Source: Mangrovimonas aestuarii (GTDB lineage Bacteria > Bacteroidota > Bacteroidia > Flavobacteriales > Flavobacteriaceae). From it: a DNA stretch of 64,000 nt. The stretch is from the NCBI RefSeq assembly GCF_028767185.1, contig NZ_JARACK010000007.1, positions 1 to 64,000 on the forward strand, given 5' to 3'. The notes under the pieces were generated by a model. The model ran no database searches and was not told the origin of the DNA. It saw nothing but the letters and a program-made list of their open reading frames with translations. The position numbers and the translations under genes are program-made. Shown here piece by piece: positions 1 through 18,460 of the stretch; positions within the stretch are counted from its first letter, which is position 1; every line of letters begins with the position of its first letter.

Positions 1-1367
1 ATCTTTAGTGTTGATGTTGAAGGGCAGACCATACTCAGCGACTTCGACATAGCGGCAACCTTCGGGCACCGTATAGCCGGACTGGTTCAATACAACGCCA
101 CTGTAAGCGACGGTATACTGGACATTGCCTTCACAAGTAATGTAGAGAACCCATTGATCAACGCCATTGAAATAATGACGAACCAATCGACAAATTCTTC
201 TGAAACACTAGCCGTTACCCCCGATCCTCTTGACTTTGGCTTGGTTTCTACCAATAGCCCTGCCACAACGAGTTTGATAACCCTCAGCAACGAGGGAGCA
301 CCAACGGATCCCCCTATCACCATAAACGATATCACCTTCTCTGGCAATGACCCTTCATTTTTCTCGCATTCCGCAGTTTTACCGATTATCGTTAACCCTG
401 GGGAATCTGTAGAAATGCCTATAAACTTTACACCTACAAGTGATGTAGGACCTAAATCTGCTGACCTGACCGTGGTACATTCTGGAATCAACTCCCCATC
501 CCCCATCCAGGTCTCCGCTGAAATATATGAAGAAGGGATATTATCCGTGTCCCCCGACCCTCTTGACTTTGGCTTTGTTTCCAACAACAGCCCGACCATT
601 ACTAATTTTGTAAACCTTAGTAACGAGGGAGTATCTTCAGACCCTCCCATTACCATAAATGCCATTTCCTTCTCCGGCAATGATCCTTCATTTTTCTCAC
701 ATTCTGCAGTTTTACCGATTATCATTAACCCTGGAGAATCCATAGAAATCCCAATTAACTTTATACCTACCAGCGATATAGGACCTAAATCTGCTGACCT
801 GACCGTGGCACACTCTGGAGCCAATTCTCCAACCTCCATTCAGGTCTCTGGGGAAATAACAAGCCTTATAAATCCTATCATCAGGATTAATGCCGGTGGA
901 CCTGAAGTGACAGCTACGGACGGTGGTCCAAACTGGGAGGGCAACACCGCCTCTGGAGCAGTTTCCGGTACTGACTACAGTGTCACTTCGGGGGGCTCCT
1001 TTACCATTAACGGAACAGATTTGGTCTATGCCGAACGCGACCCTTCAATCCCGGACTATATTGACGAAACGACATATACCACAGTAATGAACTCGGAAAG
1101 AAGTGTCGGGATATCCTCACCGCCAATGGTTTTCTCCATTCCAATACCCAATGGTGACTATCTGGTAAACCTCTACTTCAACAACCTTTACCATGGTACT
1201 TCGGAACCTGGACAGCGCATCTTCAGTGTTGATGTTGAAGGGCAGACCATACTCAGCGACTTCGACATAGCGGCAACCTTCGGGCACCGTATAGCCGGAC
1301 TGGTTCAATACAACGCCACTGTAAGCGACGGTATACTGGACATTGCCTTCACAAGTAATGTAGAGAA
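1..1367 (+). repeat. Near-perfect direct repeat inside the first giant gene (1-149 and 1219-1367)
   Basis: Bases 1-149 and 1219-1367 match with a single difference (t at 6, c at 1224), giving 143 identical bases from 7 to 149. Both encode the C-terminal part of a malectin-like domain. Identity at synonymous positions points to recent duplication or gene conversion rather than protein-level selection. The repeat may extend further left, outside the window. Confidence 0.95.
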
Positions 1368-4239
1368 TCCTATGATCAATGCTATTGAAATATTGACGAG
1401 TCAATCAACACCTATCAATGTTGACCCGATAGCTGACCAAACAAATTGTATCGGAGGAGTGGCTGATTTTACTGTTAGCGCAACTGGCGGTAATTCTGGT
1501 GAATTGTTTTCATATATGATTAGTGGACAGCCTGATGGAATAAACATAGAACCGAATAATGGTTTAATTTACGGTATTATTTCAGAAAATGCATCAACTG
1601 GAGGCATTAACAATGACGGTATCCATCTTGTGGAGGTCACTGTATCAAAACCGAGTAGTACTCCACAAACAGTTCAATTCAATTGGACCGTTCAAGAAGA
1701 TAACGAAGCACCTACAATAACAGAATGTGCTACAGATATAACTCAAGAGACCGATACTGGTTTGTGTACTGCATTAATCTCCATTACTCCACCAATAGCA
1801 ACAGATAATTGTAGTACGACATTAACATATTCAGGAACAAGATCAGACGCCTTACTATTAACAGATCCTTTCAGTGTAGGAGTCACAACAATCACTTGGA
1901 TTGTTACAGATGGAGCTGAAAACTCATCTAATCCATGTATACAGACCATATTTGTGACTGGTGGTAGCGAAACTTTCCAAATTATATGTCCAGAAATCAT
2001 CAACCAAACTTCAGATACTGGTACTTGTGAAGCTTCTGTAATCATAACTGAACCAGCTTCTTCTGGAGGATGTGGCTTCTCATACACTTTTGAGGGAATT
2101 CGCTCTGATGGAATGGAACTAACTGATCCATATCCTATAGGGTCAACGACCATTTCATGGACTGCTTTTGACGAAAGTAATAATCCCATAGACAGCTGTG
2201 AACAAACTATAGATGTTACCGATGAAGAAAACCCTGTGATTATATGTCCAGCAGACATTAACCAACCTGCAGAACAAGGACTATGTGAAGCTACTATTAC
2301 GATAGTTGAACCAACAGCTAACGACAACTGTAGTACATCATTTATTTATGAAGGCATCCGATCTGATGGTTTATTGTTAACAGCACCATACTCTGTAGGT
2401 ACAACAACAATTTCGTGGACCGCCACAGACGAAGCTAATAACATATCTGAACCTTGTGTACAAACCATAACTGTTAGTGATAGTGACATCCCTGTGATTA
2501 GCTGTCCTTCAGATATAAATCAAACAACAGACCCAGGTCTTTGTGAAGCTACTATTTCCATAGTAGAACCAACCGCTACCGATGGTTGTAGCAATATCTT
2601 CACATTTGAAGGGGTACGATCTGATGGACTACTGCTAACCGATCCTTTTCCTCTTGGGGAAACAACGATTTCATGGACAGCTAATGATGAAGCCGAGAAC
2701 ACTTCTAATCCTTGCTTACAAACCGTTACGGTAACTGGTGGTGATGGTGACGCCATGATTAGCTGTCCTATTGACATTAACGAATCAGCGAATATTGGAC
2801 TCTGCGAAGTCAATATCACCATTACACCCCCTACCGTTAATGGTGGCTGTAGTAACACTTATACTTTTGAGAGTTTACGTTCCGATGGATTGGAACTAAC
2901 CTCGCCTTTCCCAATTGGCGATACGACCATTTCATGGACAGCTTTAGATGAAAGCAATAATCCAATAGATTCATGTGAACAGACAGTAACAGTTACAGAC
3001 GGTGAAATTCCTGTGATTAGCTGCCCTGCTGACATTAATCAACCTGCAACTTCTGGACTTTGTCAAGCTACTATTTCCATAGTAGAACCAACCGCCAATG
3101 ACAATTGCAGCACGCTATTTTCAATTGTAGGTACACGATCTGATGGCTTGTTAATTACAGCTCCTTTCCCTGTAGGAGTGACAACAATTTCATGGACAGC
3201 CACAGACGAGGCTGAAAACACATCTGAGCCATGTATTCAAACTATTACAGTGACTGATGGCAGCAACCCTGTGATTAGCTGCCCTTCAAACATTAATCAA
3301 TCTACAGACCCTGGACTTTGTGAGGCTACCATTACAATTGATAATCCTACGGCTTCCGATGACTGCAGTAATACCTTCTCTTTTGATGGTACCCGCTCTG
3401 ATGGGCTACTGCTTACAGATCCATTCCCTATTGGAGAGACAACCATTTCGTGGACCGCTAACGATGAAGCCGGTAATACCTCAGATGCTTGCCTACAGAC
3501 CATTACGGTAATTGATAACGAAGTACCTGAAATCAACTGTCCCGATGACATAGTTGAATTTGTTGATCCTGGAATAACCGAAATTGCTATTAGCATAATT
3601 AACCCAACAGGATCTGACAATTGCTCTCAAAATCTAATTTTTTCTCCAAGCAGATCAGATAATCAAGCCATTACTTCACCTTTTCCATTAGGAAATACAA
3701 TTATTACATGGGTCGCGATCGATGAAGCAGGTAATTCGTCATCAACCTGTACTCAAACTATTACTGTTACTCAATTATCGGCCTATAATATAACTCTAAA
3801 TGTATCCCTGCAGGGTCGTAGTGATTATAGTGGCAACTATTTTATTTCAATTTATTCAACGGATAACTTAACAACACCGGCTTATACTTTTGAAGAAACC
3901 GCCAATTCTTCAGGACTAATAGCATTAAGTTCTTTAATAAGCCAAGGTGACTACGTCATCCTAGTTAAACATCCGCTGTATTTGCAACGAGCAGTCGATG
4001 CTAGTATTTTGTCAAATTCCAATATTATAATCCCAATATTATTAGCTGGTGATGCCGATGACAATAACACCGTAAGCGGGTACGATAAACACCTTCTAAG
4101 AAAAGCTATGAATACATCGCCTGGTGACAATAGTTACAACCCAAACACTGATTTTAACGGCGACGAATATATAGATATGGCCGATTTTAGTTTGCTATCT
4201 GGCAACTTTGGACTATCCGGTGAAACACAATACGATTAA
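1..4239 (+). CDS. Giant secreted malectin/HYR-repeat protein with C-terminal dockerin (5' end outside window)
   Basis: The frame is open from base 1, so the start lies upstream. Domains in order: end of a malectin-like domain (1-180), two choice-of-anchor D repeats (about 214-540 and 544-870), a full malectin-like domain (about 867-1410), an Ig/cadherin-like domain (1415-1700), eight HYR repeats (about 1711-3774), a carboxypeptidase-regulatory-like beta domain (3780-4040) and a dockerin with two EF-hand-like calcium loops (D-x-D-x-N...D near 4050-4085; D-x-N-x-D...D near 4150-4185). Malectin and HYR modules are known carbohydrate-binding or adhesive folds. No T9SS tail is present: the protein stops right after the dockerin. 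A cohesin-like gene follows 12 bp later, so I infer a dockerin-cohesin pair on the cell surface. Bases before about 1400 are visibly richer in GC than those after it. By analogy with the 5151 gene the missing N-terminus may hold a beta-propeller. Confidence 0.85.
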   Translation: MFSVDVEGQTILSDFDIAATFGHRIAGLVQYNATVSDGILDIAFTSNVENPLINAIEIMTNQSTNSSETLAVTPDPLDFGLVSTNSPATTSLITLSNEGAPTDPPITINDITFSGNDPSFFSHSAVLPIIVNPGESVEMPINFTPTSDVGPKSADLTVVHSGINSPSPIQVSAEIYEEGILSVSPDPLDFGFVSNNSPTITNFVNLSNEGVSSDPPITINAISFSGNDPSFFSHSAVLPIIINPGESIEIPINFIPTSDIGPKSADLTVAHSGANSPTSIQVSGEITSLINPIIRINAGGPEVTATDGGPNWEGNTASGAVSGTDYSVTSGGSFTINGTDLVYAERDPSIPDYIDETTYTTVMNSERSVGISSPPMVFSIPIPNGDYLVNLYFNNLYHGTSEPGQRIFSVDVEGQTILSDFDIAATFGHRIAGLVQYNATVSDGILDIAFTSNVENPMINAIEILTSQSTPINVDPIADQTNCIGGVADFTVSATGGNSGELFSYMISGQPDGINIEPNNGLIYGIISENASTGGINNDGIHLVEVTVSKPSSTPQTVQFNWTVQEDNEAPTITECATDITQETDTGLCTALISITPPIATDNCSTTLTYSGTRSDALLLTDPFSVGVTTITWIVTDGAENSSNPCIQTIFVTGGSETFQIICPEIINQTSDTGTCEASVIITEPASSGGCGFSYTFEGIRSDGMELTDPYPIGSTTISWTAFDESNNPIDSCEQTIDVTDEENPVIICPADINQPAEQGLCEATITIVEPTANDNCSTSFIYEGIRSDGLLLTAPYSVGTTTISWTATDEANNISEPCVQTITVSDSDIPVISCPSDINQTTDPGLCEATISIVEPTATDGCSNIFTFEGVRSDGLLLTDPFPLGETTISWTANDEAENTSNPCLQTVTVTGGDGDAMISCPIDINESANIGLCEVNITITPPTVNGGCSNTYTFESLRSDGLELTSPFPIGDTTISWTALDESNNPIDSCEQTVTVTDGEIPVISCPADINQPATSGLCQATISIVEPTANDNCSTLFSIVGTRSDGLLITAPFPVGVTTISWTATDEAENTSEPCIQTITVTDGSNPVISCPSNINQSTDPGLCEATITIDNPTASDDCSNTFSFDGTRSDGLLLTDPFPIGETTISWTANDEAGNTSDACLQTITVIDNEVPEINCPDDIVEFVDPGITEIAISIINPTGSDNCSQNLIFSPSRSDNQAITSPFPLGNTIITWVAIDEAGNSSSTCTQTITVTQLSAYNITLNVSLQGRSDYSGNYFISIYSTDNLTTPAYTFEETANSSGLIALSSLISQGDYVILVKHPLYLQRAVDASILSNSNIIIPILLAGDADDNNTVSGYDKHLLRKAMNTSPGDNSYNPNTDFNGDEYIDMADFSLLSGNFGLSGETQYD
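214..873 (+). repeat. Tandem pair of choice-of-anchor D repeats, period 330 bp
   Basis: Two successive about 110-residue units start with the same PDPLDFG signature and share long stretches such as FFSHSAVLPII and KSADLTV. The period measured between the signatures is about 330 bp. A single copy of the same unit occurs in each of the other two giant proteins (near 7868-8190 and 14530-14835). Confidence 0.85.
1711..3774 (+). repeat. Array of eight HYR repeats, about 84-86 codons each
   Basis: Eight units share the pattern I-x-C-P...GLCEA...P-T-A-x-D-N-C-S...RSDG...DPFPxGxTTISWTAxDEAxN...C-x-Q-T-I-T-V. The cysteines are regularly spaced (about three per unit), suggesting disulfide or compact beta-sandwich units. 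HYR (hyalin repeat) is a known Ig-like adhesion module. The last unit lacks one of the cysteines (GITE instead of GLCE). Copy number differs from the five in the sister gene at 5151, so the array is probably plastic. Confidence 0.9.
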
Positions 4240-4251
4240 AACAATAATGTT

Positions 4252-5010
4252 ATGAAAGCCTTTAAATATTTCACACTAAGCATTTTTACCCTCTTTTTTA
4301 TTAATACTAATAGAGCTCAATCTGTGGACTTAGTATCTTACATTAATGAGTCAGCCCCCTTTATTAAAGGAGAGTATATTAATTATACTATTGAGGCTGT
4401 TGCTAATGATACTCTATACAACAGTTTACAAATCAAACTCCATTACAATCCTAACGCTCTAGAATTAGTAGAATTAAATACTGAATATAATTTTGATGCA
4501 ATAATTATTAACGACACTTCTACATCAGGAGAAGTAAAATTTGCTGCTGGGGATTTAGGCTCAGAAATTTATGGAAGAAATCGTGTCTTCACCATTACAT
4601 TCAGAATCATTAATCCTTATGAGCCTATTTTAATAAAACATGATTTAATCAATCAAGATAGATCAATTGTTTGCAATAAAAACGGAAAATACATCTTAGG
4701 GAAAACCAACGATATTATAATAGAGCGTTCTGCAGAGGGTAACGACAGTTCCTTTTTAAGTCAGCTTCAACTTTATCCCAATCCTGCATCTAAGAAATTT
4801 TTTATAAAGAGTAATCATTTTATTGAATCTATTAATACAATTGAACTTTTTGACCTTAACGGAAAGTTCATTAAAACCCTAAACAACTTTGAGTCAAACG
4901 ACAACACTATTATTATAAATACTGAAACCCTAGATGATGCTTTATATTTTTTAACCGTAAACACATATTACGGAACAAAAAGAACTTTTAGGGTGATTGT
5001 TAAAAATTAA
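4252..5010 (+). CDS. Small secreted cohesin-like protein with T9SS type A sorting tail
   Basis: 252 residues: signal peptide (1-23, ending RAQ), a cohesin-like beta-sandwich (about 24-160, with the phrase GEVKFAAGDLG typical of cohesin folds and a start SVDLVSYINE), then a T9SS type A tail from about 172 (LYPNPASKKFFI ... ALYFLTVNT ... FRVIVKN). T9SS tails direct export across the outer membrane and are usually cleaved when the cargo is fixed to the surface. The gene begins 12 bp after a dockerin-ended giant protein and is surely cotranscribed. A close paralogue (10798-11553) has the same position behind a second dockerin protein. I infer it captures the dockerin and gives the complex its T9SS address. 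The cohesin assignment rests on motif reading and context, not on a search. Confidence 0.8.
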   Translation: MKAFKYFTLSIFTLFFINTNRAQSVDLVSYINESAPFIKGEYINYTIEAVANDTLYNSLQIKLHYNPNALELVELNTEYNFDAIIINDTSTSGEVKFAAGDLGSEIYGRNRVFTITFRIINPYEPILIKHDLINQDRSIVCNKNGKYILGKTNDIIIERSAEGNDSSFLSQLQLYPNPASKKFFIKSNHFIESINTIELFDLNGKFIKTLNNFESNDNTIIINTETLDDALYFLTVNTYYGTKRTFRVIVKN

Positions 5011-5150
5011 GCTTATCAACAAAAAAACATGTGCTTATGCATATAAAACTAAAAATGGTGCTTATGCCCTCTTTTTCAGGTTCTATTAAGTTCTCCAATC
5101 ATGTTGTTTTTGTTGACAGCCAACACCAATAACCTAAAAACATTATTGTT

Positions 5151-8100
5151 ATGTCGATTAATTTCCCGCAAAAAGTAGTCTTAGCATTATCCTCACTTGT
5201 GCTAATCTATTTATCTCCATGTTGCAAAATTTATGGACAATCCATAAGCTTTGGGTCGTCCGGTTTGGTTGGGGAATCTGTATTGTACCCCACCTCATTG
5301 GACTTTGGTCCCGACGACAGACTCTATGTATCCCAACAGAATGGAATGATATGGGCTTTTACCATAGAACGTGATGGGGCACCAATGGGCGACGGCACCT
5401 ATACCGTAAACACAACCTCCAATCCTCCTGAGGAAATAACAGTTATACAAACCGATGTTCCCAACCACAATGACCAAGGGATTCTAAACCCCGCACAACA
5501 GCGTCTGATCACAGGAATCATGACAGCCGGAACGGCTGAAAACCCCATAATTTATGTCACATCGTCCGATTACCTTTTTGGCGGTGGCGGTGCCGGTGAC
5601 GACACCAATCTGGACACCAACTCGGGCGTGCTGTCGAAGCTCGAGTGGAACGGAGCTTCTTGGAACAAAGTGGACCTGATAAGGGGATTGCCTCGCTGTG
5701 AGGAACAGCATGCCACCAATGGTATGGACATATTTGTAAGCCCCAACGATGGCAACACTTACCTTCTGATATCCCAGGGAGGGAACAGCAACAAGGGAGC
5801 TCCAAGCAATAATTTTGCTGGAACACCAGAGTATTTCTTATCGGGGGCCATTCTCATCGTAAACCTCACTCAACTTGAGGGCATGACCGTTTATACGGAC
5901 CCCAGAACCAATACAGACTATGTGTACGACCTTCCTACATTGAACGATCCCACCCGTGCCGATATTGCTTTTGGGGACCCCGACTTCCCATACCCTGCCG
6001 GCCACCCCTATGCCAACAACACCATAGACGTTGGCGATCCCTTTGGGGGAAACAACAGCCTAAACCAGGCCTTTCCAGAAGCAGGAGGGCCCATACAGAT
6101 ATTCTCATCAGGCTACAGAAACCCCTACGACGTGGTCATCACTCAAAACGGAAGGATCTATACCTCCGATAATGGTCCCAACAGCGGCTGGGGCGGTCTA
6201 CCGAAGATTTACAGCAAAGCCGACGACACCTTTCTGGGGGACGAGAGCACGATAGCCTATGATCCTATCAACCATTACATCACCAACGAGCTCAATGAAA
6301 ATGGAAGCTACATTATTGGTGATCCCCTGCACTTTGTGGGAACTATTTCCGATGCCAATTTCTCATATTACGGGGGCCATCCCAATCCCATATTGGCATT
6401 TCCCGACCGGGCCATGGTAATTAGCTATGAGCACGACGAAGTAACAGACGATTGGGTCGCTACCAACACCCATGACCTACAGGATTTATTGCCCGGAACC
6501 TCGGGATACTTCAACGATTCCTTTACTATAGGAGATTTCCCCGAAAGGTCTGACTTAGGGGAGTACCTTCTGGATGAGCCCGTTGGCAGTACACAGGTTA
6601 ACATCCTTGACGTGATCAACTTTTCAACCAACGGTATCGCCGAATATACGGCCTCTAATTTTGGGGGCGCCATGCAGGGCGATATCCTGACCGCCTCCTT
6701 TAACGGCGATATAAACCGCTACAAGCTCAATGCGGCTGGAAATGTGGTAGAAGAGTACGAGGCCATCTTCAGTGGCTTTGGGAACATCCCCCTTGACGTT
6801 ATCGCCATGGGCGATGACCATGTTTTCCCCGGGACCGTTTGGGCCGCCACCTATGGCTCCAATAGCATAACCATTTTCGAGCCCACAGCAGTGGACTGCA
6901 GCCAGCCGGGGGACCTCGATTACGTTTCAACGGAGGACAATGATGGGGACGGCTATTCCAACCAGGACGAAATAGACAATGGTACAAACCACTGCTCGCA
7001 GGGCAGTAAGCCCAGGGACAATGACGGGGACTTTATTTCCGACCTCAACGACAACGACGACGACAACGACGGTATAGACGACATCAATGATGCCTTTGCA
7101 CTGGACCCTGACAACGGGCTCACCAACAGCCTGCCCATAGTATACCCCTTTTGGAACAACGATCCCGGCACCGGGTTTTACGGTCTGGGGTTCACCGGGC
7201 TCATGATCAACAATGCAACCGACTACCTCGACCAGTTCAACGAAGAGGACCTCTCCTTTGGCGGGGCAGCGGGAAAGGCCACTGTGGACCTTGTATCGGG
7301 GGGTGATGCCCATTTGGCAAACAACAATCAGGAAAACGCCTTCCAGTTTGGCATCAATGTCGACACTAGTTCCAACCCCTTTACCATTCACAGCCAGATT
7401 GAGTCGCCCTATTTCAGCATCAACGGCTCACAGACCGACCCTATTGACTTTCAGTCCTACGGTATTTTTATCGGGACCGGGGACCAGGACAACTATCTCA
7501 AGTTCGTCCTGACCAACGGCACCCTGAACAGTGACAATGTCAACGGCCTTCAGGTAGCCCTGGAAGACCAAGGGGGACTGACCACCAATAATTACGACGT
7601 CCCGAATATCCTCAGCTCCAGTGCCGTGGATTTTTACCTGAGCGTAGACCCTGCGGCCAATACGGTACAGCCCTACTATTCCCTGGACGGAGGACAGACA
7701 CTAAACGTGCTTGGCTCTCCCATTGGACTGCCATCCAGCTTTTTGGACCCTTCGGACAGCAAGGGGCTTGCCGTTGGGATTATATCCACTTCAAGGGGAA
7801 ATTCAGGTCCAACACCATTTACCGCAACCTGGGACCTGATAGAGGTTTACGAAAACCAAAATGGAGTACTATCCATTGCTCCTGACCCGCTAGAGTTTGG
7901 CCTGACCCCTACCAGCAACTCCCTTAGAACAAAATATATCGACCTAAACAATGAGGGAGGTCCTACGGACTCCCCCATTACAGTTACCGAAATCGCCTTC
8001 TCAGGGGGTGACGCTTCCTATTTCTCTCATTCGGCCGAGCTGCCGATAGTGGTCAACCCCGGGACATCGGTCAAGGTGCCCATCAACTTTATCTCCACAG

Positions 8101-10787
8101 AGGATATCGGACTTAAATCAGCATCTCTAAGCGTCACCCACAACGGAAGCAACTCCCCAAATTTGATTACGGTTGCGGGAGAATTGACCAGTCTTTTCAG
8201 TCCAATTGTGCGGATCAATGCCGGAGGGCCGGAAGTCATTGCCTCCGATGGCGGCCCTATCTGGGAAGACAATGCCGCTTTGGGAGGGACAGTGGGGCCT
8301 AGCTACAACGTAAGCTCGGGAGGTTCCTATAGTGTCAATGCCTCGGATATGGTCTTCGCCAACCGTGATGCCTCGATTCCTGACTATATAGATGAGACCA
8401 CCTATACCTCTGTGATGAACTACGATCGCGGGGTAGACATTACCTCTATACCTATGATATTTTCAATAATGCTTCCCAATGGAGAATATATCGTCAACAT
8501 GTATTTTGCCAATCTCTACCATGGCACACAGGATCCCGGACAGCGCATCTTCAGTGTCAACATAGAAAATGAGTTAGCCGTGGACCATTTGGATCCCTCT
8601 GCCATCTATGGTCATAGGATTGCTGGAATGGTACAGCACAACGCAACTGTGACCGACGGCGTACTCGAAATTCAGTTTATAAGTCATATAGATGAGCCTT
8701 TAATCAATGCCATAGAAATTATGGCTGTACAGTCCATACCAATAGATGTTGACCCTATTTCAGATCAAATCAATTGCGTAGGTACCCAAGCCGATTTCAC
8801 TGTAACTGCTTTTGGCGGAGACCCTGAAGAACCTTTTTCATTTAGCATTAACGGACAACCAGGAGGTATTGACATTGAACCCAATAACGGTTTAATTTAT
8901 GGTACTGTAGCAGTGGATGCTGCATCTGGAGGGCCAAATGGTGATGGATTTTACAATGTGGAGGTCACAGTCTCTAAATCTGGTAGCTCACCAGTAATTA
9001 CTATTTTTAACTGGACAGTAAATGAAGATACAGAAGCTCCAATCATTACAAACTGCCCAACAGATTTAATATTTTCCTCAGGAGGAAATCTGTGCAACGC
9101 TGTGGCCCCTATTGTCCCCCCTTCGGCAACAGACAATTGCAGTACTAACTTGAATATTCTTGGCATACGATCCGATACTTTACCTTTAACAGACCCCTTC
9201 CCTCTAGGTGTAACGATAATTACTTGGACAGCTACAGATGATTCCGGAAATACTTCTTTAGAGTGTGTTCAAAACATTGAAGTTATTGATAACGAGTCAC
9301 CTGAAATAAATTGTCCTCCTGAAATTATCCAATCCTCAGATATCGGTCTATGCGAGGCTAATTTGACCATTATCAACCCAACAGCTTTAGACAACTGCAG
9401 CACAGTCTTTACCTTTGAAGGCAGCCGATCTGATGAACTGAACCTTAATGATCCCTATCCTGTGGGAACGACTACAATAACTTGGACTGTAATGGACGAA
9501 GCCGGAAACATTTCTGATGCATGCGTGCAAACAGTGACTATAACTGATGGAAATGCCCCCATTATTAGCTGTTCGGGTGATATTAACCAAGCTGCCGATT
9601 TGGGACTTTGTGAAGCTAGCGTAACAATTGACGATCCTACAGCAACGGATGACTGCAGCACAGCCTTTACATTTGAAGCTACCCGATCTGATGGATTGGA
9701 CCTGAGCGCCCCTTACCCAGTGGGGACGACAACAATTAATTGGACTTCAATTGATGAAGCCGGTAATACCTCAGATACTTGCGAACAAACAGTAACCATA
9801 ACTGATGGAGATGCCCCCATTATTAGCTGTTCAGGTGATATCAACCAAGCTGCCGATTTTGGTCTTTGCGAAGCTAGCATAACAATTGACGATCCTACAG
9901 CAATCGATGATTGTAGTTCTACTTTTATATTTGAAGCTACTCGATCTGATGGACTAGACTTAAACGCCCCTTACCCCGAAGGGACGACAACGATCAGTTG
10001 GATTGCTATTGACGAAACTGGAAACACCTCTGATCCCTGCATTCAAACGATAACAATATTTGATGACGAATCTCCTGAAATAGTTTGCTCAACAGATATA
10101 ACCGTAACAGTAGATTTAGGAGAAGTAGAGGCTTCTGTAATTATTTCAGACCCTATAGGCACTGACAATTGCTCTGAAGAACTTATATTTACTCCTGTTC
10201 GATCTGACGCATTATCACTTAATGATCCTTACCCTTTGGGGGATACCACTATTTCATGGACTGCTATGGATCAATCTGGACAAACGTCATTATCGTGTGA
10301 TCAAATAGTTAGCGTTGTTGAAACTGCCGAATTTAATATCACTTTGAATGTTTCGCTTCAGGGTCGGTTAGACTATAGTGGGCCCTACGAAATAACCTTC
10401 TACTCTACCAATGACCTAATTACGCCTGCCTATGTATTTAATGAGGTTGCAGATTCTGCAGGCAACTTATCTTTAAGTTCCGCAATTAGCTTGGATAATT
10501 ACATCATTGTATTAAAATATTTTTTGTATTTACAAAGAGCTGAAAGTATATCTATTTCTTCTAATGGAACATTTAATATAGAAATGCTTTTAGCAGGAGA
10601 TGCAAATAATAATAACACAATAAATATTTCAGACTATGGAATCTTAGAAGGTTCTTTTGGTCTTAGTGAAGGAAATACAGGCTACAGCCCTAATGCTGAC
10701 TTTAATGGAGACCAAACTGTAAACATTATTGACTTTAGCTTACTCTCAGGGAACTATGGAGGGATAGGGGAAACTCAAAACGATTAA
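5151..10787 (+). CDS. Giant secreted propeller/malectin/HYR protein with C-terminal dockerin
   Basis: 1878 residues. Order: signal peptide (1-30, ending YGQ); a glucose/sorbosone dehydrogenase-like beta-propeller (about 31-580, with DFGPDDRLYVSQQNG and GFRNxYDV-type phrases); thrombospondin-3-like acidic calcium repeats (about 590-645, DNDGDGYSN, DNDGDFISDLND); a concanavalin-like domain (about 655-900); one choice-of-anchor D; malectin-like (about 1015-1190); Ig/cadherin-like; five HYR repeats; a carboxypeptidase-regulatory-like domain; and a dockerin with two D-x-N-x-N/D...D loops at the end. No T9SS tail. The first 1190 or so residues are closely similar to the 11827 product, but the DNA is far more GC-rich (67% by hand count in 5581-5640 against 40% in the homologous 12241-12300). 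After about 8750 composition returns to AT-rich. Probable role: calcium-dependent glycan binding at the surface; whether the propeller is enzymatic cannot be told. Confidence 0.88.
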   Translation: MSINFPQKVVLALSSLVLIYLSPCCKIYGQSISFGSSGLVGESVLYPTSLDFGPDDRLYVSQQNGMIWAFTIERDGAPMGDGTYTVNTTSNPPEEITVIQTDVPNHNDQGILNPAQQRLITGIMTAGTAENPIIYVTSSDYLFGGGGAGDDTNLDTNSGVLSKLEWNGASWNKVDLIRGLPRCEEQHATNGMDIFVSPNDGNTYLLISQGGNSNKGAPSNNFAGTPEYFLSGAILIVNLTQLEGMTVYTDPRTNTDYVYDLPTLNDPTRADIAFGDPDFPYPAGHPYANNTIDVGDPFGGNNSLNQAFPEAGGPIQIFSSGYRNPYDVVITQNGRIYTSDNGPNSGWGGLPKIYSKADDTFLGDESTIAYDPINHYITNELNENGSYIIGDPLHFVGTISDANFSYYGGHPNPILAFPDRAMVISYEHDEVTDDWVATNTHDLQDLLPGTSGYFNDSFTIGDFPERSDLGEYLLDEPVGSTQVNILDVINFSTNGIAEYTASNFGGAMQGDILTASFNGDINRYKLNAAGNVVEEYEAIFSGFGNIPLDVIAMGDDHVFPGTVWAATYGSNSITIFEPTAVDCSQPGDLDYVSTEDNDGDGYSNQDEIDNGTNHCSQGSKPRDNDGDFISDLNDNDDDNDGIDDINDAFALDPDNGLTNSLPIVYPFWNNDPGTGFYGLGFTGLMINNATDYLDQFNEEDLSFGGAAGKATVDLVSGGDAHLANNNQENAFQFGINVDTSSNPFTIHSQIESPYFSINGSQTDPIDFQSYGIFIGTGDQDNYLKFVLTNGTLNSDNVNGLQVALEDQGGLTTNNYDVPNILSSSAVDFYLSVDPAANTVQPYYSLDGGQTLNVLGSPIGLPSSFLDPSDSKGLAVGIISTSRGNSGPTPFTATWDLIEVYENQNGVLSIAPDPLEFGLTPTSNSLRTKYIDLNNEGGPTDSPITVTEIAFSGGDASYFSHSAELPIVVNPGTSVKVPINFISTEDIGLKSASLSVTHNGSNSPNLITVAGELTSLFSPIVRINAGGPEVIASDGGPIWEDNAALGGTVGPSYNVSSGGSYSVNASDMVFANRDASIPDYIDETTYTSVMNYDRGVDITSIPMIFSIMLPNGEYIVNMYFANLYHGTQDPGQRIFSVNIENELAVDHLDPSAIYGHRIAGMVQHNATVTDGVLEIQFISHIDEPLINAIEIMAVQSIPIDVDPISDQINCVGTQADFTVTAFGGDPEEPFSFSINGQPGGIDIEPNNGLIYGTVAVDAASGGPNGDGFYNVEVTVSKSGSSPVITIFNWTVNEDTEAPIITNCPTDLIFSSGGNLCNAVAPIVPPSATDNCSTNLNILGIRSDTLPLTDPFPLGVTIITWTATDDSGNTSLECVQNIEVIDNESPEINCPPEIIQSSDIGLCEANLTIINPTALDNCSTVFTFEGSRSDELNLNDPYPVGTTTITWTVMDEAGNISDACVQTVTITDGNAPIISCSGDINQAADLGLCEASVTIDDPTATDDCSTAFTFEATRSDGLDLSAPYPVGTTTINWTSIDEAGNTSDTCEQTVTITDGDAPIISCSGDINQAADFGLCEASITIDDPTAIDDCSSTFIFEATRSDGLDLNAPYPEGTTTISWIAIDETGNTSDPCIQTITIFDDESPEIVCSTDITVTVDLGEVEASVIISDPIGTDNCSEELIFTPVRSDALSLNDPYPLGDTTISWTAMDQSGQTSLSCDQIVSVVETAEFNITLNVSLQGRLDYSGPYEITFYSTNDLITPAYVFNEVADSAGNLSLSSAISLDNYIIVLKYFLYLQRAESISISSNGTFNIEMLLAGDANNNNTINISDYGILEGSFGLSEGNTGYSPNADFNGDQTVNIIDFSLLSGNYGGIGETQND
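9034..10325 (+). repeat. Array of five HYR repeats
   Basis: Five units of about 86 codons with the same consensus as the array at 1711-3774. Units three and four (starting near 9546 and 9804, offset 258 bp) are very similar at DNA level over more than 100 bases, including the shared run of gatcctacagcaa, so this pair arose by a recent tandem duplication. Confidence 0.9.
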
Positions 10788-10797
10788 ACTTAGCATC

Positions 10798-11553
10798 ATG
10801 AAAGCATTTACTATTTTAAAAATATCATTATTAACACTATTCTACGGTAGCATTTCAGCCCAATCTGTTGATTTAGTAGCTAATTTAGACGCGGAACCAC
10901 CATTCGTAAACGATCAGTACATAACCTATACCTTAGAGGCAATAGCTGGAACCACAGAATATAATGGTATACAGGTAAAATTGAATTACAACTCAGCAGC
11001 GCTTCAGTTAGAAGGACTATCAAACGAATTCGATTTTGATGTAATAATTTTAAACGATACTGCAATTCCTGGATTGGTAAGATTTGCCGCAGGCAATCTA
11101 GGCACATCGATTACTGGAACAAACACTGTAATTAACATAACTTTCAAGGTAATAAACAGTAACAATCCCATTTCTATAAGCCATGACCTAACATATCCAA
11201 ATGGGAGTATTATTTCCAATGAGGACGGAATTAATGTTCTTAACTCTTCTAATGATATTTTATTTGAGCCCTTAAACAGTAACTCGGATGATTTATCACT
11301 AGGGGAATTAATTCTGTTCCCTATTCCCGCATCCAAAGAATTATATCTACAAGGCAGCAGTTCTATTAATTTTATTAACCAAATAAAAATTCATGATATA
11401 AATGGGAAATTGATAAATGCTATATACAACCCAGAAATTATTGAAAACAAAATAATAGTAGATATATCAATGCTACAGGAATCACTTTATTTCCTCACAG
11501 CAACTACAAAATTTGGCACAAAAAAAACCTTCAGAATAGTTGTTAATCATTAA
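10798..11553 (+). CDS. Small secreted cohesin-like protein with T9SS type A sorting tail (second copy)
   Basis: 251 residues, organised exactly like the 4252 product: signal peptide (1-22, ending SAQ), cohesin-like domain (about 23-157; QSVDLV start and LVRFAAGNLG core match the first copy), and a T9SS type A tail from about 170 (LILFPIPASKELYL ... LYFLTATTKFGTKKTFRIVV). It starts 10 bp after the dockerin-ended gene at 5151. In the tail the usual YPNP is changed to FPIP. The pairing of dockerin gene and cohesin gene is therefore repeated, which supports a specific protein pair rather than chance neighbourhood. Divergence between the two cohesins suggests separate partner specificities, but this is inference. 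Confidence 0.8.
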   Translation: MKAFTILKISLLTLFYGSISAQSVDLVANLDAEPPFVNDQYITYTLEAIAGTTEYNGIQVKLNYNSAALQLEGLSNEFDFDVIILNDTAIPGLVRFAAGNLGTSITGTNTVINITFKVINSNNPISISHDLTYPNGSIISNEDGINVLNSSNDILFEPLNSNSDDLSLGELILFPIPASKELYLQGSSSINFINQIKIHDINGKLINAIYNPEIIENKIIVDISMLQESLYFLTATTKFGTKKTFRIVVNH

Positions 11554-11826: not shown

Positions 11827-14800
11827 ATGATTTCAATATCCCTAGAAAGAATAACCTTAGGTTTAGGCATTTGTATTCTTGCCACTTTTTCACTTAGCGC
11901 ACAAACTGTGAGCTTTGGCTCTTCTGGCTTGGTTGGAGAAACTGTTTTAAATCCTACTTCTTTAGATTTTGGCCCTGATGACCGATTATACGTATCGCAA
12001 CAAAATGGTAAAATCCTTGCCTATACAATAACCCGTGATGAAGCACCTGCTGGTAGCGGAACTTACACTGTAAACAGTATTGAAGAAATAACAATCGTTC
12101 AAGAGGAATGCGTTAACCATAACGACCAAGGTGTTGCAACCCTTAACCAACAGCGATTGGTTACCGGTTTACTTACTACTGGTACTGCTCAAAATCCCAT
12201 AGTTTATGTAACCTCCTCTGATTTTACTTCTGGAGCTGGTGGTCTAGACTCTAATCTAGACACAAATTCTGGAGTACTTTCAAAGCTTGAATGGAACGGA
12301 ACTACATGGATTAAAATAGATTTAGTTCGTGGATTACCTCACAGTGAAGAAGTACACGCCACTAATGGTATGGACATATTTGAAAACAATGGTAACACCT
12401 ACCTTCTTATAGCCCAAGGAGGCAATACTAATAAGGGAGCTCCAAGCAATAATTTTGCGGGGCTTACAGAGTACTATTTGTCAGGTTCTATCTTAATTGT
12501 CAATTTAACTCAATTAGATGGTATGACTATTTATACCGATGCGAAAAACGGCTATGATTTTATATATGACCTACCTACTTTAAACGATCCAACACGAGCA
12601 GATATTGATAATTCACATCCTGATTTCCCTTACCCTTCCGGTCATCCACTATACAACACAACAATTGATTGGGGAGACCCCTTTGGTGGCAACAATGCAT
12701 TAAACCAAGCTTTTCCCGAGAATGGAGGACCTGTTCAAATATTAGCCCCTGGCTTCAGAAACATCTATGATGTTCTCGTTACCGAAAGCGGAAGAATTTA
12801 CACCTCTGATAATGGGCCTAACGCTTTATGGGGAGGATTTCCTAAAATTTACGACAATGATAGTGAAGCATATTTAGGTGATGAAAGCAGTATAATTTAC
12901 GATACAGACAACAATTATATTACCAATGAAATGAATGAAAATGGGAGTTCTTCGCATGGCGATCCCCTTCATTTTGTTGGAAACATTAGTGATAGTAATG
13001 GCACTTATTATGGGGGCCACCCTATTCCCATACAAGCATTCCCTAGCAAATCCAGGGTTATAGACTATCAAAAAAACACCACTAATGGCATATGGGAAAT
13101 TGCTAATGATTATTCCTTTTCAGAATTACTGTTGGGTACTTCAGGCTATTTTAATACTAGCTTTAATATAGGAGATTTTTCTGAACAACCACAATTAGGT
13201 GAATATCTAGCCGATGAACCTGTTGGAAATAGTATGGTAAATATTCTAGATATCGTTGAGGCCTCAACTAATGGTATAACCGAGTATACTGCCAGCACAT
13301 TTAATGGTGCCATGCAAGGAAATCTACTAACTGCTTCCTATAACGGTCAAATAAACCGCTATATACTCAATTCCTCAGGTAATGAAGTAATACAGCACGA
13401 AGCTATTTTCAATGGATTTGGAAACATTCCATTAGATGTCATAGCTCAAGGCGATAATGACATCTTTCCAGGTACTGTATGGGCTACCACTTATGGATCT
13501 AATGGTATTACAATTTTTGAACCTTCAGATATTAATTGTTTGCAACCTGGTGATTCAGATTATAACCCCCTTGCCGACTATGATAATGATGGCTATTCAA
13601 ATGGAGATGAAATAGACAACCAGACCAATATCTGCTCTCAAGGTAGTAAGCCAAATGATTTTGATGGTGATTTTATTTCCGATTTAAATGATACCGACGA
13701 TGATAATGATGGGGTTTTAGACAGTTTAGATGTTTTCCCTATTGACCCCAATAATGGCCTAAGCACAAATTTACCTGTAAACTATCCGTTTTGGAACAAC
13801 GATCCAAATACAGGGTTGTTTGGTCTGGGCTTCACGGGTTTGATGCTGGACACCTCCGGAAATTCTGATTATCTGAATTTATTCAATGCTGCTAATTTAT
13901 CATTTGGAGGAGCTGCCGGAAAAGCTACAATAGACTCTGTACCTGAAGGAGATTCATTTCAAGCAAACAACAATCAGGAAAATGGATTTCAATTTGGTGT
14001 TAACGTTGACACCAATTCAGCTCCTTTTACTGTACATTCTCGACTTAACTCCCCTTTTTTTGGAATTAATGGAAATCAAACCGAGCCAGTTAACTTTCAG
14101 TCATATGGAATTAGCATTGGTACGGGAGACCAACAAAACTACCTTAAATTCGTACTGATGACTGGTACTCAAGATGGTGATAATAGTCATGGTCTACAGG
14201 TATACATGGAAAGTAATGATGCAACGGTAATTAACAATGTATATGACATTCCTAATATTTTGAACAGTAATTCTATCGATCTATACTTTTCGATTGACCC
14301 ATCACAAAATACTGCTCAGCCCTATTATTCTCTAGACGAAGGGCAGACCTTAATTTTACTGGGTTCGTCTATTATTTTACCTAACAGTTATTTAAGCACT
14401 ACAGATTCCAAAGGACTTGCTATTGGCTTAATTTCTACTTCTCGAGGCAGTTCTGCGCCACCTTTTACGGCCACTTGGGACTTTATTGAGGTATACGAAA
14501 ACCAAAATGGCGTCCTATCTAGTATCCCAAGTCCTTTGGATTTTGGCTTAACCCCTGTAAACAACAGCCAACGATTTAAACATTTAACTTTAAAAAACTT
14601 GGGGGGACCTACAGACGACCCAATAACAATTAACTCTATAAGTTTTTCCGGGGTTAACTCTAGTTTATTTTATAGCACTGCTAATTTCCCAATTATTTTA
14701 CAGCCCAGTACTAGTGTGAAGATTCCAATCTATTTTGTATCAAATAATTCAATAGGAACAAAACAGGCCACAATTTCCATTTTCAATGATGGTAGTAACT

Positions 14801-15660
14801 CACCAATCAACTTTAACATAACAGGAACATTAACAAACACTTATACACCTTTATTGAGAATAAATGCTGGCGGGCCAACTATCATTACTTCAGATGATAT
14901 TCCAGACTGGGAAAGTAACGACGAGGCAGGAATAGATATAGGTGATTCTTACACTGTATCTTCAGGTGGTCCTTATGCCATTGATAGTTCTAATCTAAAT
15001 TTTGAAGATCGTGACGTAACCATACCGAACAGTATGGATGCAACAACCTATACATCGCTTCTTAGTTCTGAAAGAAGTGTTGGTATCACCTCTCCTCCTA
15101 TGGTATATAGCATAAACCTTCCAAATGACGACTATATTGTAAACCTATTTTTCGCCAACATATATGACGGTACATCACAAGCTGGACAACGTATCTATAG
15201 TATTAACATTGAAGGCTCTCCTGCAATTGAGGATTTTGACCCTTCAGGTCTTTTTGGCCATAGAATTGGTGGAATGATACAACACAATGTATCTGTAAAT
15301 GATGGGATGCTTGAAATCGAATTTATTAGAAACATTGAAAACCCTTTAATAAATGCAATAGAAATTCTAGCAAACCAGAATTCACTAAGTGATTCATTCA
15401 ATGAGTTTGCAGATAATATCATTATGTTTCCAAATCCAGTAAGCAACCAACTATTTATAAATGCAAAAAACCCCAAACAAATTGAATCGATGCGTGTAAC
15501 AAGTATTGAAGGAAAATCTGTAATGAATATAGCAGATATTGAATCATCAAACGGGATGATTACAATTGATACATCCCAACTAAGTGAAGCTTTGTATTTT
15601 TTAACACTACAATCAGTTGATGGTAGTAAAGCCCAATTTAAGTTTATTGTAAAAAGGTAG
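11827..15660 (+). CDS. Secreted propeller/malectin protein with its own T9SS type A tail
   Basis: 1277 residues. Signal peptide (1-25, ending LSAQ), beta-propeller of the glucose/sorbosone dehydrogenase type (about 27-575), thrombospondin-3-like calcium repeats (DYDNDGYSN, DFDGDFISDLND), concanavalin-like domain, one choice-of-anchor D, malectin-like domain, and a T9SS type A tail from about 1195 (IIMFPNPVSNQLFI ... ALYFLTLQ ... FKFIVKR). It is a close paralogue of residues 1-1190 of the 5151 product but has no Ig, HYR or dockerin part; the T9SS tail takes their place. Codon use is AT-rich like the chromosome, unlike the GC-rich sister. Its 3' end overlaps the convergent M23 peptidase gene by 17 bp. 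Probable surface glycan-binding protein; enzyme activity unproven. Confidence 0.9.
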   Translation: MISISLERITLGLGICILATFSLSAQTVSFGSSGLVGETVLNPTSLDFGPDDRLYVSQQNGKILAYTITRDEAPAGSGTYTVNSIEEITIVQEECVNHNDQGVATLNQQRLVTGLLTTGTAQNPIVYVTSSDFTSGAGGLDSNLDTNSGVLSKLEWNGTTWIKIDLVRGLPHSEEVHATNGMDIFENNGNTYLLIAQGGNTNKGAPSNNFAGLTEYYLSGSILIVNLTQLDGMTIYTDAKNGYDFIYDLPTLNDPTRADIDNSHPDFPYPSGHPLYNTTIDWGDPFGGNNALNQAFPENGGPVQILAPGFRNIYDVLVTESGRIYTSDNGPNALWGGFPKIYDNDSEAYLGDESSIIYDTDNNYITNEMNENGSSSHGDPLHFVGNISDSNGTYYGGHPIPIQAFPSKSRVIDYQKNTTNGIWEIANDYSFSELLLGTSGYFNTSFNIGDFSEQPQLGEYLADEPVGNSMVNILDIVEASTNGITEYTASTFNGAMQGNLLTASYNGQINRYILNSSGNEVIQHEAIFNGFGNIPLDVIAQGDNDIFPGTVWATTYGSNGITIFEPSDINCLQPGDSDYNPLADYDNDGYSNGDEIDNQTNICSQGSKPNDFDGDFISDLNDTDDDNDGVLDSLDVFPIDPNNGLSTNLPVNYPFWNNDPNTGLFGLGFTGLMLDTSGNSDYLNLFNAANLSFGGAAGKATIDSVPEGDSFQANNNQENGFQFGVNVDTNSAPFTVHSRLNSPFFGINGNQTEPVNFQSYGISIGTGDQQNYLKFVLMTGTQDGDNSHGLQVYMESNDATVINNVYDIPNILNSNSIDLYFSIDPSQNTAQPYYSLDEGQTLILLGSSIILPNSYLSTTDSKGLAIGLISTSRGSSAPPFTATWDFIEVYENQNGVLSSIPSPLDFGLTPVNNSQRFKHLTLKNLGGPTDDPITINSISFSGVNSSLFYSTANFPIILQPSTSVKIPIYFVSNNSIGTKQATISIFNDGSNSPINFNITGTLTNTYTPLLRINAGGPTIITSDDIPDWESNDEAGIDIGDSYTVSSGGPYAIDSSNLNFEDRDVTIPNSMDATTYTSLLSSERSVGITSPPMVYSINLPNDDYIVNLFFANIYDGTSQAGQRIYSINIEGSPAIEDFDPSGLFGHRIGGMIQHNVSVNDGMLEIEFIRNIENPLINAIEILANQNSLSDSFNEFADNIIMFPNPVSNQLFINAKNPKQIESMRVTSIEGKSVMNIADIESSNGMITIDTSQLSEALYFLTLQSVDGSKAQFKFIVKR

Positions 15661-16348
15661 TTGGCATTTTAAGTAAAAGGTCTGGGTTTGGACAGTTTTC
15701 TCTATAAAAGTCAATATTGGTTAAACTTGAAACACCAGGATAATCCCCCTTATTACCTTGTAAGTCATTAATAATCTGAAAATGTAAATGTGGAGGATAT
15801 TCACCATTAATATTAGGCTTGCCCAATTCTGCTATTTTATCACCCACATCATATTTTTTCCCCACCGCAACCTTTTCAAGTGACTCTAAGCTTAAATGTC
15901 CATAAAGTGTATAAAAGGGAATATTTCCTAAGGTATGTTTTAAGATAATTGTAGGACCATAATCACCAAAATTATTGTTGTTTTTAAAACTATGCACTAC
16001 ACTATTCAATGGAGCCAACACGGCAGTTCCTTCTGCAGCCCAAAAATCAACCCCTAAATGAATGTTCCTTTGTTCCGTTTTATTTTGCCCAAAATATGAA
16101 CTTCTTTCATAAATCCTTCGCTCTTCCATATAACCACCATAAGCCACCTTTGCATTTCGGTCACTCAAATAGCCTTCTATATAATCAGAAAATAGCTCAA
16201 CTGATTCAAAGTGGGATTTTGTAAGCGTTATATTGTCCTTTGACAAGTTAATTGGGGCATATAAATTAAAGGGAATAGAGGAATCTAAAATATGTATAGG
16301 GGATTTGCTATGATTTACTAAAAGTGAAGACAAGGCATATTTTTCCAT
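15644..16348 (-). CDS. M23 family metallopeptidase
   Basis: 234 residues. The LytM/M23 zinc site is complete: H97-x3-D101 (HLGVD), H151 (LYGHL) and the H187-x-H189 pair (PHLHF). M23 enzymes cut peptide cross-links of peptidoglycan. No signal peptide or membrane segment is visible at the N-terminus, unusual for a wall hydrolase, so export may need another route or the substrate may be cytosolic. The start is the ATG at 16348; a TAGTTTTG promoter-like box sits 12 bp upstream. The 3' end overlaps the convergent giant gene by 17 bp. Confidence 0.85.
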   Translation of the reverse strand: MEKYALSSLLVNHSKSPIHILDSSIPFNLYAPINLSKDNITLTKSHFESVELFSDYIEGYLSDRNAKVAYGGYMEERRIYERSSYFGQNKTEQRNIHLGVDFWAAEGTAVLAPLNSVVHSFKNNNNFGDYGPTIILKHTLGNIPFYTLYGHLSLESLEKVAVGKKYDVGDKIAELGKPNINGEYPPHLHFQIINDLQGNKGDYPGVSSLTNIDFYRENCPNPDLLLKMPTTFLQ

Positions 16349-16360
16349 GCTCTAAAAATA

Positions 16361-16368
16361 CAAAACTA
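16361..16368 (-). promoter_or_regulatory. Candidate -7 box for the M23 gene
   Basis: TAGTTTTG on the minus strand matches TAnnTTTG exactly and lies 12 bp before the ATG. Its TAG is also the stop codon of the upstream gene. No TTG at the right distance was found, so support is partial. Confidence 0.35.
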
Positions 16369-17862: not shown

Positions 17863-17887
17863 GTTTAAACTTTTTAAAATTCGGTGA

Positions 17888-18460
17888 TTAAGTGATGTTT
17901 TTTGTTTCCTCTTGTTGTGATGAATCTTTTAAGTTCTGTAATTGATCACGTAAACGATAGAGCAAATTCAAACGAAACTTTAAATTATCAATCAGAGCGT
18001 TTACCGTTAGCTCATTAGGACCATTTTTGGTAAGCTCTTCCGAGAGTTTTTTATACTCATTGTTAAGCTCTTCCAAGCGTTCCAAATAACCATCAAGAAG
18101 TTCTTTGTTCTCAGGAGAAAACTTAACCTTGGACAATTCAAGATTTATACTTGCCAAATAATAATCTTCAACCATTTTAAGCTCTGGAGAAACATCACCC
18201 AAAGTTTTAGTTTGTGTTGCAATAGTTCCATTGGTTGATTCTACAACGTTACTACTTGATTGATAACGGAAAACCCAAGCTCCCAAACCAATAAAAATTA
18301 CTATGGTCGCAGCAATGGCCCACCATGAATTTCTACGTTTACTCTCTAGTGGCAATGAAGCTTCCAGTTTATTTAAAAATCGTTCCTCATGACCTTGAGG
18401 CATTCCTCCTTTTTGGAGTTTTGCGTCTTCCTTTAGCATTTGTCTAAGATCTCGTGCCAT
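17888..18460 (-). CDS. Anti-sigma factor-like single-pass membrane protein
   Basis: 190 residues with a cytoplasmic N-terminus (1-44), one membrane segment (46-64, WWAIAATIVIFIGLGAWVF) and an outside helical domain with coiled-coil character (about 90-180). It overlaps the ECF sigma gene by 17 bp, which suggests translational coupling. That arrangement, together with the topology, fits an anti-sigma factor holding the sigma factor at the inner membrane. The zinc-binding HxxxCxxC motif of ZAS-type anti-sigma factors is absent, so the assignment is by context. It could also be a simple membrane protein of the regulon. Confidence 0.65.
   Translation of the reverse strand: MARDLRQMLKEDAKLQKGGMPQGHEERFLNKLEASLPLESKRRNSWWAIAATIVIFIGLGAWVFRYQSSSNVVESTNGTIATQTKTLGDVSPELKMVEDYYLASINLELSKVKFSPENKELLDGYLERLEELNNEYKKLSEELTKNGPNELTVNALIDNLKFRLNLLYRLRDQLQNLKDSSQQEETKNIT

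Follow-up and report, generated by a model that had tools for sequence, protein, structure and literature searches.

Two giant dockerin proteins, each followed by a T9SS-tailed cohesin protein

The window analyzed here is the 64,000-nucleotide stretch that begins at base 1 of contig NZ_JARACK010000007.1 (C13) of Mangrovimonas aestuarii, whose 2.95-Mb genome is assembled in 15 contigs. At its start lie two genes that encode giant proteins ending in an X-dockerin. Each of them is followed, after 12 bp (giant 1 to partner 1) or 10 bp (giant 2 to partner 2), by a gene for a small partner protein that carries a cohesin and a C-terminal type A tail of the type IX secretion system (T9SS). A third gene encodes a tailed paralogue of giant 2 (Table 1). 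The first-pass annotation, made from the letters alone, had described these genes as a split system in which the cohesin partner escorts or anchors a very large repeat protein at the surface. The four reading frames, all on the + strand, and both gaps agree with its description.

Table 1. Genes and domains at the start of the window
Feature	Position	Strand	Description
Giant 1, C-terminal 1412 amino acids (aa)	1-4239	+	HYDIN-type Ig, 2 malectin and 8 HYR stretches, X-dockerin
X-dockerin of giant 1	3787-4236	+	X module and two calcium-type loops; Pfam dockerin 4045-4200
Partner 1, 252 aa	4252-5010	+	Cohesin 4315-4740; T9SS type A tail ~4771-5004
Giant 2, complete, 1878 aa	5151-10787	+	N-terminal cargo region 5241-8700, 5 HYR stretches, X-dockerin
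X-dockerin of giant 2	10335-10784	+	Pfam dockerin 10593-10748
Partner 2, 251 aa	10798-11553	+	Cohesin 10858-11280; T9SS type A tail ~11314-11547
Gene 3, tailed paralogue of giant 2	11827-15660	+	Own T9SS tail ~15424-15654
M23 peptidase gene	15644-16348	-	Part of the downstream flank
Genes for a 498 aa protein, a 190 aa protein and an ECF-type sigma factor	16366-18998		Downstream flank with the M23 gene, common to most relatives

Dockerin_1 (PF00404) scored above its Pfam cut-off of 22.9 bits in both giants (26.0 and 24.0 bits), and no T9SS tail model from Pfam or NCBIfam, including TIGR04183 and PF18962, matched either of them at E<=1. The cohesin model PF00963 (cut-off 24.1 bits) was exceeded in partner 2 (25.8 bits) and was borderline in partner 1, being just under the cut-off with hmmscan (22.9 bits) and just over it in the genome search, where the frame was read with its neighbours (24.3 bits). 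TIGR04183 passed its cut-off of 23 in both partners (40.2 bits and, narrowly for the second, 23.8 bits) and in gene 3 (32.8 bits). The tail-less dockerin giants and the small cohesin proteins with a type A tail, as first annotated, were thus recovered with all three families, one cohesin being borderline. The partners have hydrophobic N-termini, as judged by eye. Throughout the genome two cohesins and two dockerins lay above the cut-off, all four at this locus; two weak dockerin-like matches elsewhere (E 0.15 and 0.70) were below it. SprA, the one T9SS component that was sought, is encoded in the genome (TIGR04189, 2718.7 bits).

The N-terminal cargo region of giant 2 gave a weak match to a glucose/sorbosone dehydrogenase (GSDH), below the cut-off, followed by malectin, and this region of the giants had no match among PDB sequences at E<=0.1. 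In the Pfam and NCBIfam scans no catalytic carbohydrate-enzyme family exceeded its cut-off in the giants; one NCBIfam enzyme model matched, far below its cut-off, the malectin part only. Gene 3 and giant 2 are identical at 764 of 1252 aligned columns (61%), and gene 3 has its T9SS tail at the point where giant 2 goes on with HYR stretches and the X-dockerin.

The docking modules are predicted to adopt X-dockerin and cohesin folds

Pair 1 is in frame across the 12-bp gap, and the stretch 3787-4740 was folded as one chain with AlphaFold, with the TAA read as G and the relatives supplied as alignment; the pair of Formosa maritima was used as a second first row. The fusion of window pair 1 had a mean predicted local distance difference test score (pLDDT) of 82.8, and its individual domains were well predicted. 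Residues 1-147 resembled type II X-dockerins (4wi0_B, Z 15.3, 138 residues aligned, root-mean-square deviation (rmsd) 2.1; 3kcp_A of C. thermocellum, Z 15.2), and residues 178-318 resembled cohesins (6kgc_A, Z 15.2, 133 residues aligned, rmsd 2.8). The same folds were obtained with the Formosa maritima fusion (4wi0_B, Z 15.8; 6kgf_C, Z 15.8). These models support the assignment of the middle domain of the partner as a cohesin, with Z about 15 against solved cohesins, as first proposed, and that of the C-terminus of the giant as an X-dockerin.

Fourteen X-dockerins were compared, and two calcium-type loops were seen by eye in each of them. Their recognition helices were identical at a mean of 9.5 of 15 positions, where shuffling gave a mean of 1.7 and a maximum of 2.9 in 2000 shuffles. 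We take such near-identical recognition helices to be the expectation for a dual-mode dockerin.

The gene pair is conserved in relatives

When PF00963 was used as the probe, matches at E<=0.01 were confined to 4 of 149 genomes, that of the window among them, and at the same threshold the model matched 13 rows in a set where 14 of 25 rows hold a cohesin. This model was too insensitive, so that profiles were built from the two window copies. The X-dockerin profile matched 10 of 397 genomes of the family. In 7 of these 10 the cohesin profile matched strongly (E below 1e-20), and each of the 7 has the cohesin match in the next downstream gene, which is T9SS-tailed. Weak cohesin-profile matches (E about 6e-4) were also seen in three genomes (G193, G317 and G327), two of them with internal stops. 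A pattern-based scan of a collection of 84,980 species gave 48 loci, 12 of them with the window-type pair: Xanthomarina, Formosa, Hanstruepera (4), Mangrovimonas, Lacinutrix (2), Oceanihabitans and two metagenome-assembled genomes (MAGs), so that 10 of the 12 named loci come from strain records. A cohesin with a T9SS tail lies directly downstream in 12/12 of these loci.

Family search and species scan overlap in 4 genomes and together yield 16 pairs in 15 genomes. The adjacent dockerin and cohesin-T9SS genes that had been suggested for a search of other flavobacterial genomes were found in this form in all of them: the cohesin-T9SS gene is directly downstream of the X-dockerin giant in 16/16 pairs, and each partner has one cohesin and, by our own tail model, a T9SS tail. 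For 5 of the 12 named relatives the giant was compared with NCBIfam (E<=1), and no T9SS tail model matched. The surroundings are likewise conserved, as seen with BLAST: secA is upstream of the locus in 15/15 genomes, three genes downstream, the last of them that for the sigma factor, are present in 14 of the 15 (not at L093), and the M23 peptidase gene is absent from the loci L084, L085, L087 and L093. Most of the named genera with the pair are aerobic and marine.

Own tail and docking module replace each other in one cargo family

The N-terminal 1153 aa of giant 2, sought alone, matched 42 of the 397 family genomes. Frames from 35 of these were examined (G017, G178, G231, G315, G363, G365 and G446 were left out), and 40 complete frames were counted, the window genes being excluded and frames that run off the end of a contig or stretch being dropped beforehand; L199 is in the count though it shares only the malectin part. 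A T9SS tail was present in 25 frames (23 by our own model, and L195 and L199 via TIGR04183), an X-dockerin in 9 and a second dockerin-like module in 2 (L166 and L167). The other four were ambiguous or unreadable: L191 is sub-threshold (19.5 versus 23), L189 matches no tail model, L190 is frame-broken, with a tail found in the next frame, and L197 is masked. Tail and X-dockerin occurred together in 0/40 complete frames. The public models, applied at E<=0.001 to 27 C-termini (the 25 tails, L189 and L191), matched 24/27 (TIGR04183) and 23/27 (PF18962). Judged by these domain assignments, an own tail has been exchanged against a docking module within one cargo family.

A quick IQ-TREE tree of 62 rows, midpoint-rooted and with SH-aLRT support only, places the tailed gene 3 of the window inside the X-dockerin clade (support 97 and 98), and L166/L167 also lie inside this clade (support 91, 89 and 99). 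The labels call for at least 5 changes, a count from which 14 unlabelled rows were left out, and the starred branches alone force 3 (tail) and 4 (X-dockerin). The tree would also fit a history in which gene 3 retained the old tail and the X-dockerin was gained several times.

A second putative adaptor pair occupies the same locus

L166 and L167, which belong to one genus, are at the same secA locus as the X-dockerin/cohesin pairs. Their giant ends in a region with two loops of the form GDINxNxxxRYxGPxND; when that of L166 was scanned, neither a T9SS tail nor a Pfam dockerin was found. The gene that follows after 16 bp encodes a protein of 259 aa with a clear T9SS tail (45.3 and 44.6 bits), the N-terminal domain of which has no Pfam match. 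In hhalign comparisons this partner domain was related to cohesins with 1.05% probability (a two-row profile, with which distant kinship is possible), and the second dockerin-like region to the X-dockerin with 0.5% probability (two closely related rows, with the same proviso). Plug and socket thus both appear, from their sequences, to have been replaced at the secA locus, with the small partner remaining the tailed one. Of all the observations, this in-place swap argues most strongly for joint action of the two proteins and for a tail that the giant borrows. Within this cargo family three predicted solutions replace one another: an own tail, an X-dockerin with a cohesin-tail partner, and a second dockerin-like module with another tailed partner.

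A profile of the second C-terminal region matched 34 of 305 Bacteroidia genomes, often partially. Thirty of these loci (L202-L231) were fetched and a frame was found in 28, none with an own tail by our own model. As a raw count, within a flank of ~1.4 kb, a same-strand protein of 341-420 aa whose tail passes PF18962 follows in 8/30 loci. In genus g279, 7 or 8 matches to the second region were reported per genome, on proteins without a T9SS tail match. The L166/L167 partner domain was also tried as a widespread cohesin and gave 0/305 genomes, a set that held no known-positive genome, so that this count is uninformative.

A second architecture and modules outside the pairs

In three further genomes of the family and at two Robiginitalea loci, the X-dockerin ends a giant of 2873-3194 aa, and a gene that is T9SS-tailed by our own model adjoins it upstream, on the same strand and at 19-31 bp, in 5/5 loci. 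A cohesin-like N-terminal part was seen in 3/3 of the tailed genes with a readable start. In G347 it is over the Pfam cut-off, in G249 it is weak, and in G289 it is seen by alignment only, with 42% identity to G347. A three-row profile of this second clade matched the cohesins of the first clade with 96% probability (E 2e-9).

Docking modules were also found elsewhere. At L042:9040-11823, G289 encodes a protein of 928 aa that combines glucose/sorbosone dehydrogenase and cytochrome c domains with a C-terminal X-dockerin and may share the cohesin of the other G289 locus. At L038:9109-10290, G313 encodes a T9SS-tailed protein with two cohesins, in a genome with one dockerin match at E<=0.1. At six loci on MAG contigs (L097, L099, L118, L123, L129 and L130), X-dockerin-like proteins adjoin weak cohesin matches, with no T9SS tail match. 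These contigs are mostly labelled Anaerolineae/Chloroflexi; the L099 contig, with the label Pleurocapsa, may be mis-binned.

A T9SS signal domain probably supplied by a partner

T9SS substrates are recognised via their C-terminal domain. The middle domain of the partner is predicted to fold as a cohesin, the giants end in an X-dockerin and match no T9SS tail model, and their cargo family is mostly self-tailed, so that the partner very probably provides both tail and anchor to the giant. The giants would then be T9SS cargo with the C-terminal signal domain relocated to a separate protein. Both proteins would cross the inner membrane via Sec, and the X-dockerin would bind the partner's cohesin, probably while both are still in the periplasm. 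Since this dockerin is at the extreme C-terminus of the giant and the tail is on the cohesin partner, the type A tail would thereby be placed where the giant's own, covalent tail would sit. The complex would exit through the SprA translocon, and the partner would undergo the processing of a type A substrate and become attached to the surface, with the giant shown there non-covalently. According to the excerpted text of a T9SS account, folded proteins are transported by this system and SprB reaches 6497 aa (PMC9251779). The parts of this proposal differ in strength. Binding of X-dockerin and cohesin in the window pairs is highly likely, and display of the giant at the surface via the partner is likely. 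Co-export of giant and partner as a complex is slightly favoured. Taken as a whole, we favour with modest confidence that the giants are T9SS cargo with the signal domain on a separate protein, which are co-exported and displayed. That the T9SS accepts hitchhikers in general, with the signal domain supplied in trans by interchangeable plug-and-socket adaptors, is put forward tentatively, at somewhat less than even chances.

Several observations weigh against co-export with a relocated signal. The predicted template modelling (pTM) scores of the fusions, 0.54 for window pair 1 and 0.69 for Formosa, do not fix the mutual placement of the domains, so that of the pair prediction suggested by the first-pass annotation the two folds were obtained and an interface was not established. 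The symmetry of the recognition helices is lowest in the window itself, at 3/15 in giant 1, where the first helix is degenerate, and 6/15 in giant 2; the giant 1 dockerin (4045-4200) has lost this symmetry, which most relatives retain, and the loss may alter specificity between the two window pairs. Two of the 40 cargo frames (L189 and L191) have neither a docking module nor a tail over the cut-off. In the second clade the cohesin is at the far end, away from the tail, of a protein of 2700-3100 aa, and no cohesin model matched the tailed gene of G289, one of the three genomes; this layout fits assembly at the surface at least as well as escort. Pairing is not always 1:1, for the L042 X-dockerin protein adjoins neither a cohesin nor a T9SS-tailed gene, and the double cohesin at L038 has no dockerin gene alongside. 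Finally, the Chloroflexota-type neighbours, in which an X-dockerin and a weak cohesin occur without a T9SS tail, indicate that docking itself is not tied to the T9SS.

The second-clade layout and the solitary L042 protein would be readily explained if the partner served for anchoring only, that is, if the giant left the cell by an own, unrecognised route, such as a T9SS signal that current models miss, and the T9SS-exported cohesin partner captured it at the surface, as in a cellulosome. This has a precedent in the Acetivibrio cellulolyticus protein ScaA, held at the surface by type II cohesins on scaffoldins anchored by SLH domains (available text of PMC4217186). It would nevertheless leave the giants, both those of the window and the 5 scanned in named relatives, without any recognised T9SS tail, and it does not need the exclusivity observed in the 40 frames, where tail and docking module never meet in a cargo family that is mostly self-tailed. 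We regard anchoring alone as rather unlikely, though as the main competitor. The split system first annotated stands in so far as tail and anchor very probably come from the partner, which may escort the giant across the outer membrane or may hold it only afterwards.

The cohesin-T9SS proteins could instead form a small scaffold for several dockerin proteins engaged in polymer degradation. The G313 protein with its two cohesins, the two X-dockerin proteins of G289, one of which bears GSDH and cytochrome domains, and the system of Candidatus Stygibacter (PMC8542988, as excerpted) point in that direction. Each window partner, however, has a single cohesin, cohesins and dockerins are equal in number genome-wide, the gene pairing is consistent and the giants hold no catalytic carbohydrate-enzyme family above its cut-off, so that a cellulosome-like role is improbable here. 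Retention of the giant in the periplasm, where the partner would bind it for another purpose, would account for the lack of a recognised outer-membrane export signal on the giant. This reading is the least probable of all, given the malectin and HYR repeats, the T9SS-tailed paralogue in the same cluster and the T9SS tail of the partner in every one of the 16 pairs.

Relation to known docking and export systems

In cellulosome anchoring systems the X-dockerin is C-terminal. The type II cohesin/X-dockerin complexes of these systems (ScaA with ScaB or ScaD; CipA of C. thermocellum) have the same two folds as the modules described here (Z about 15). As in A. cellulolyticus, the docking module is on a large protein and the cohesins are on a surface-anchored one (PMC4217186, available text). 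The anchor here is a T9SS type A tail, whereas SLH domains serve there; in addition, there is one cohesin per partner (16/16), the genes are paired and there is an outer membrane to cross. The window has no scaffoldin with several cohesins and no catalytic dockerin enzyme, unlike a cellulosome.

A close case is that of Candidatus Stygibacter (Cloacimonadota), for which a T9SS-tailed multi-cohesin scaffoldin was inferred in 2021 to hold dockerin enzymes (PMC8542988). There too the protein that bears the cohesins has a T9SS-type C-terminal domain, and the dockerins are on the presumed binders; the scaffoldin has 3755 aa, multiple cohesins and carbohydrate-binding modules, and the system, deduced from metagenome assemblies, includes several dockerin enzymes. 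By contrast, the pairs described here are 1:1 and operon-borne, and one cargo occurs in tailed and docking versions. The first-pass annotation knew of no described case of dockerin cargo that uses the T9SS tail of a partner. This has to be qualified by the Stygibacter scaffoldin, although the excerpted account of it discusses attachment and not export in trans.

Ordinary T9SS type A cargo carries the tail (TIGR04183/PF18962) itself, as do the partners and gene 3, but not the giants. T9SS type B cargo likewise has a clustered gene for its proposed surface holder, the nearby PorP/SprF; it retains its own C-terminal signal, however, and its partner is PorP/SprF and not a tailed adaptor (PMC10202324, in part). 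The logic proposed here is that of hitchhiker co-export by the twin-arginine translocation (Tat) pathway, in which the signal of one subunit carries a signal-less folded partner (Rodrigue et al. 1999, via the excerpt in PMC9251779). Membrane and machine differ, and hitchhiking is not known for the T9SS; as in Tat hitchhiking, the recognised translocon signal is on one subunit only, the tail models having matched the partner alone in the window and in the relatives scanned. Engineered cohesin-dockerin display also has the cohesin on the anchor and the dockerin on the displayed protein (PMC13033320, available portion), but it is man-made and on spores, whereas the pair described here is natural and has a T9SS tail.

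The folds, the anchoring logic and a T9SS-tailed scaffoldin with dockerin enzymes are thus already known. In the literature searched on T9SS with cohesins and dockerins, most subscription papers lying outside this scope, export in trans through cohesin and dockerin was not found described. As far as these searches reach, the 1:1 cohesin-T9SS gene pairs of Flavobacteriaceae are new, and so is the natural exchange, in one cargo family, of an own tail, an X-dockerin/cohesin-tail pair and a second adaptor pair. An anchoring lock of cellulosomes would here be at work outside them, in Flavobacteriaceae. Should a docking partner be able to carry the recognised domain, a class of large surface proteins escapes secretome prediction in Bacteroidota, and if the split is general, many tail-less surface proteins may have been overlooked by tail-based prediction. 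The translocon would have to pass preassembled complexes, which would offer a direct functional test of its folded-cargo capacity, and the pairs would be the natural equivalent, in Gram-negative cells, of engineered cohesin-dockerin display, with a cargo that is not fused to the signal domain.

The upstream end of the locus

Giant 1 is truncated, as the contig begins inside it. Its probable N-terminal part is a 1471-residue frame that runs off the edge of contig C12, and secA, the upstream flank of the locus, is also on C12 (SecA was checked with Pfam on this contig only). C12 ends with exactly the 127 bp with which C13 begins (window 1-127). The break, with its overlap, falls within a malectin repeat, so that the true number of repeats in giant 1 may differ from that read here. 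The C12 frame is 97% identical to giant 2 over ~1150 N-terminal residues, and the part of giant 1 on C13 is 54% identical to giant 2. This difference in identity suggests that the N-terminal part of the giants was recently duplicated or underwent gene conversion.

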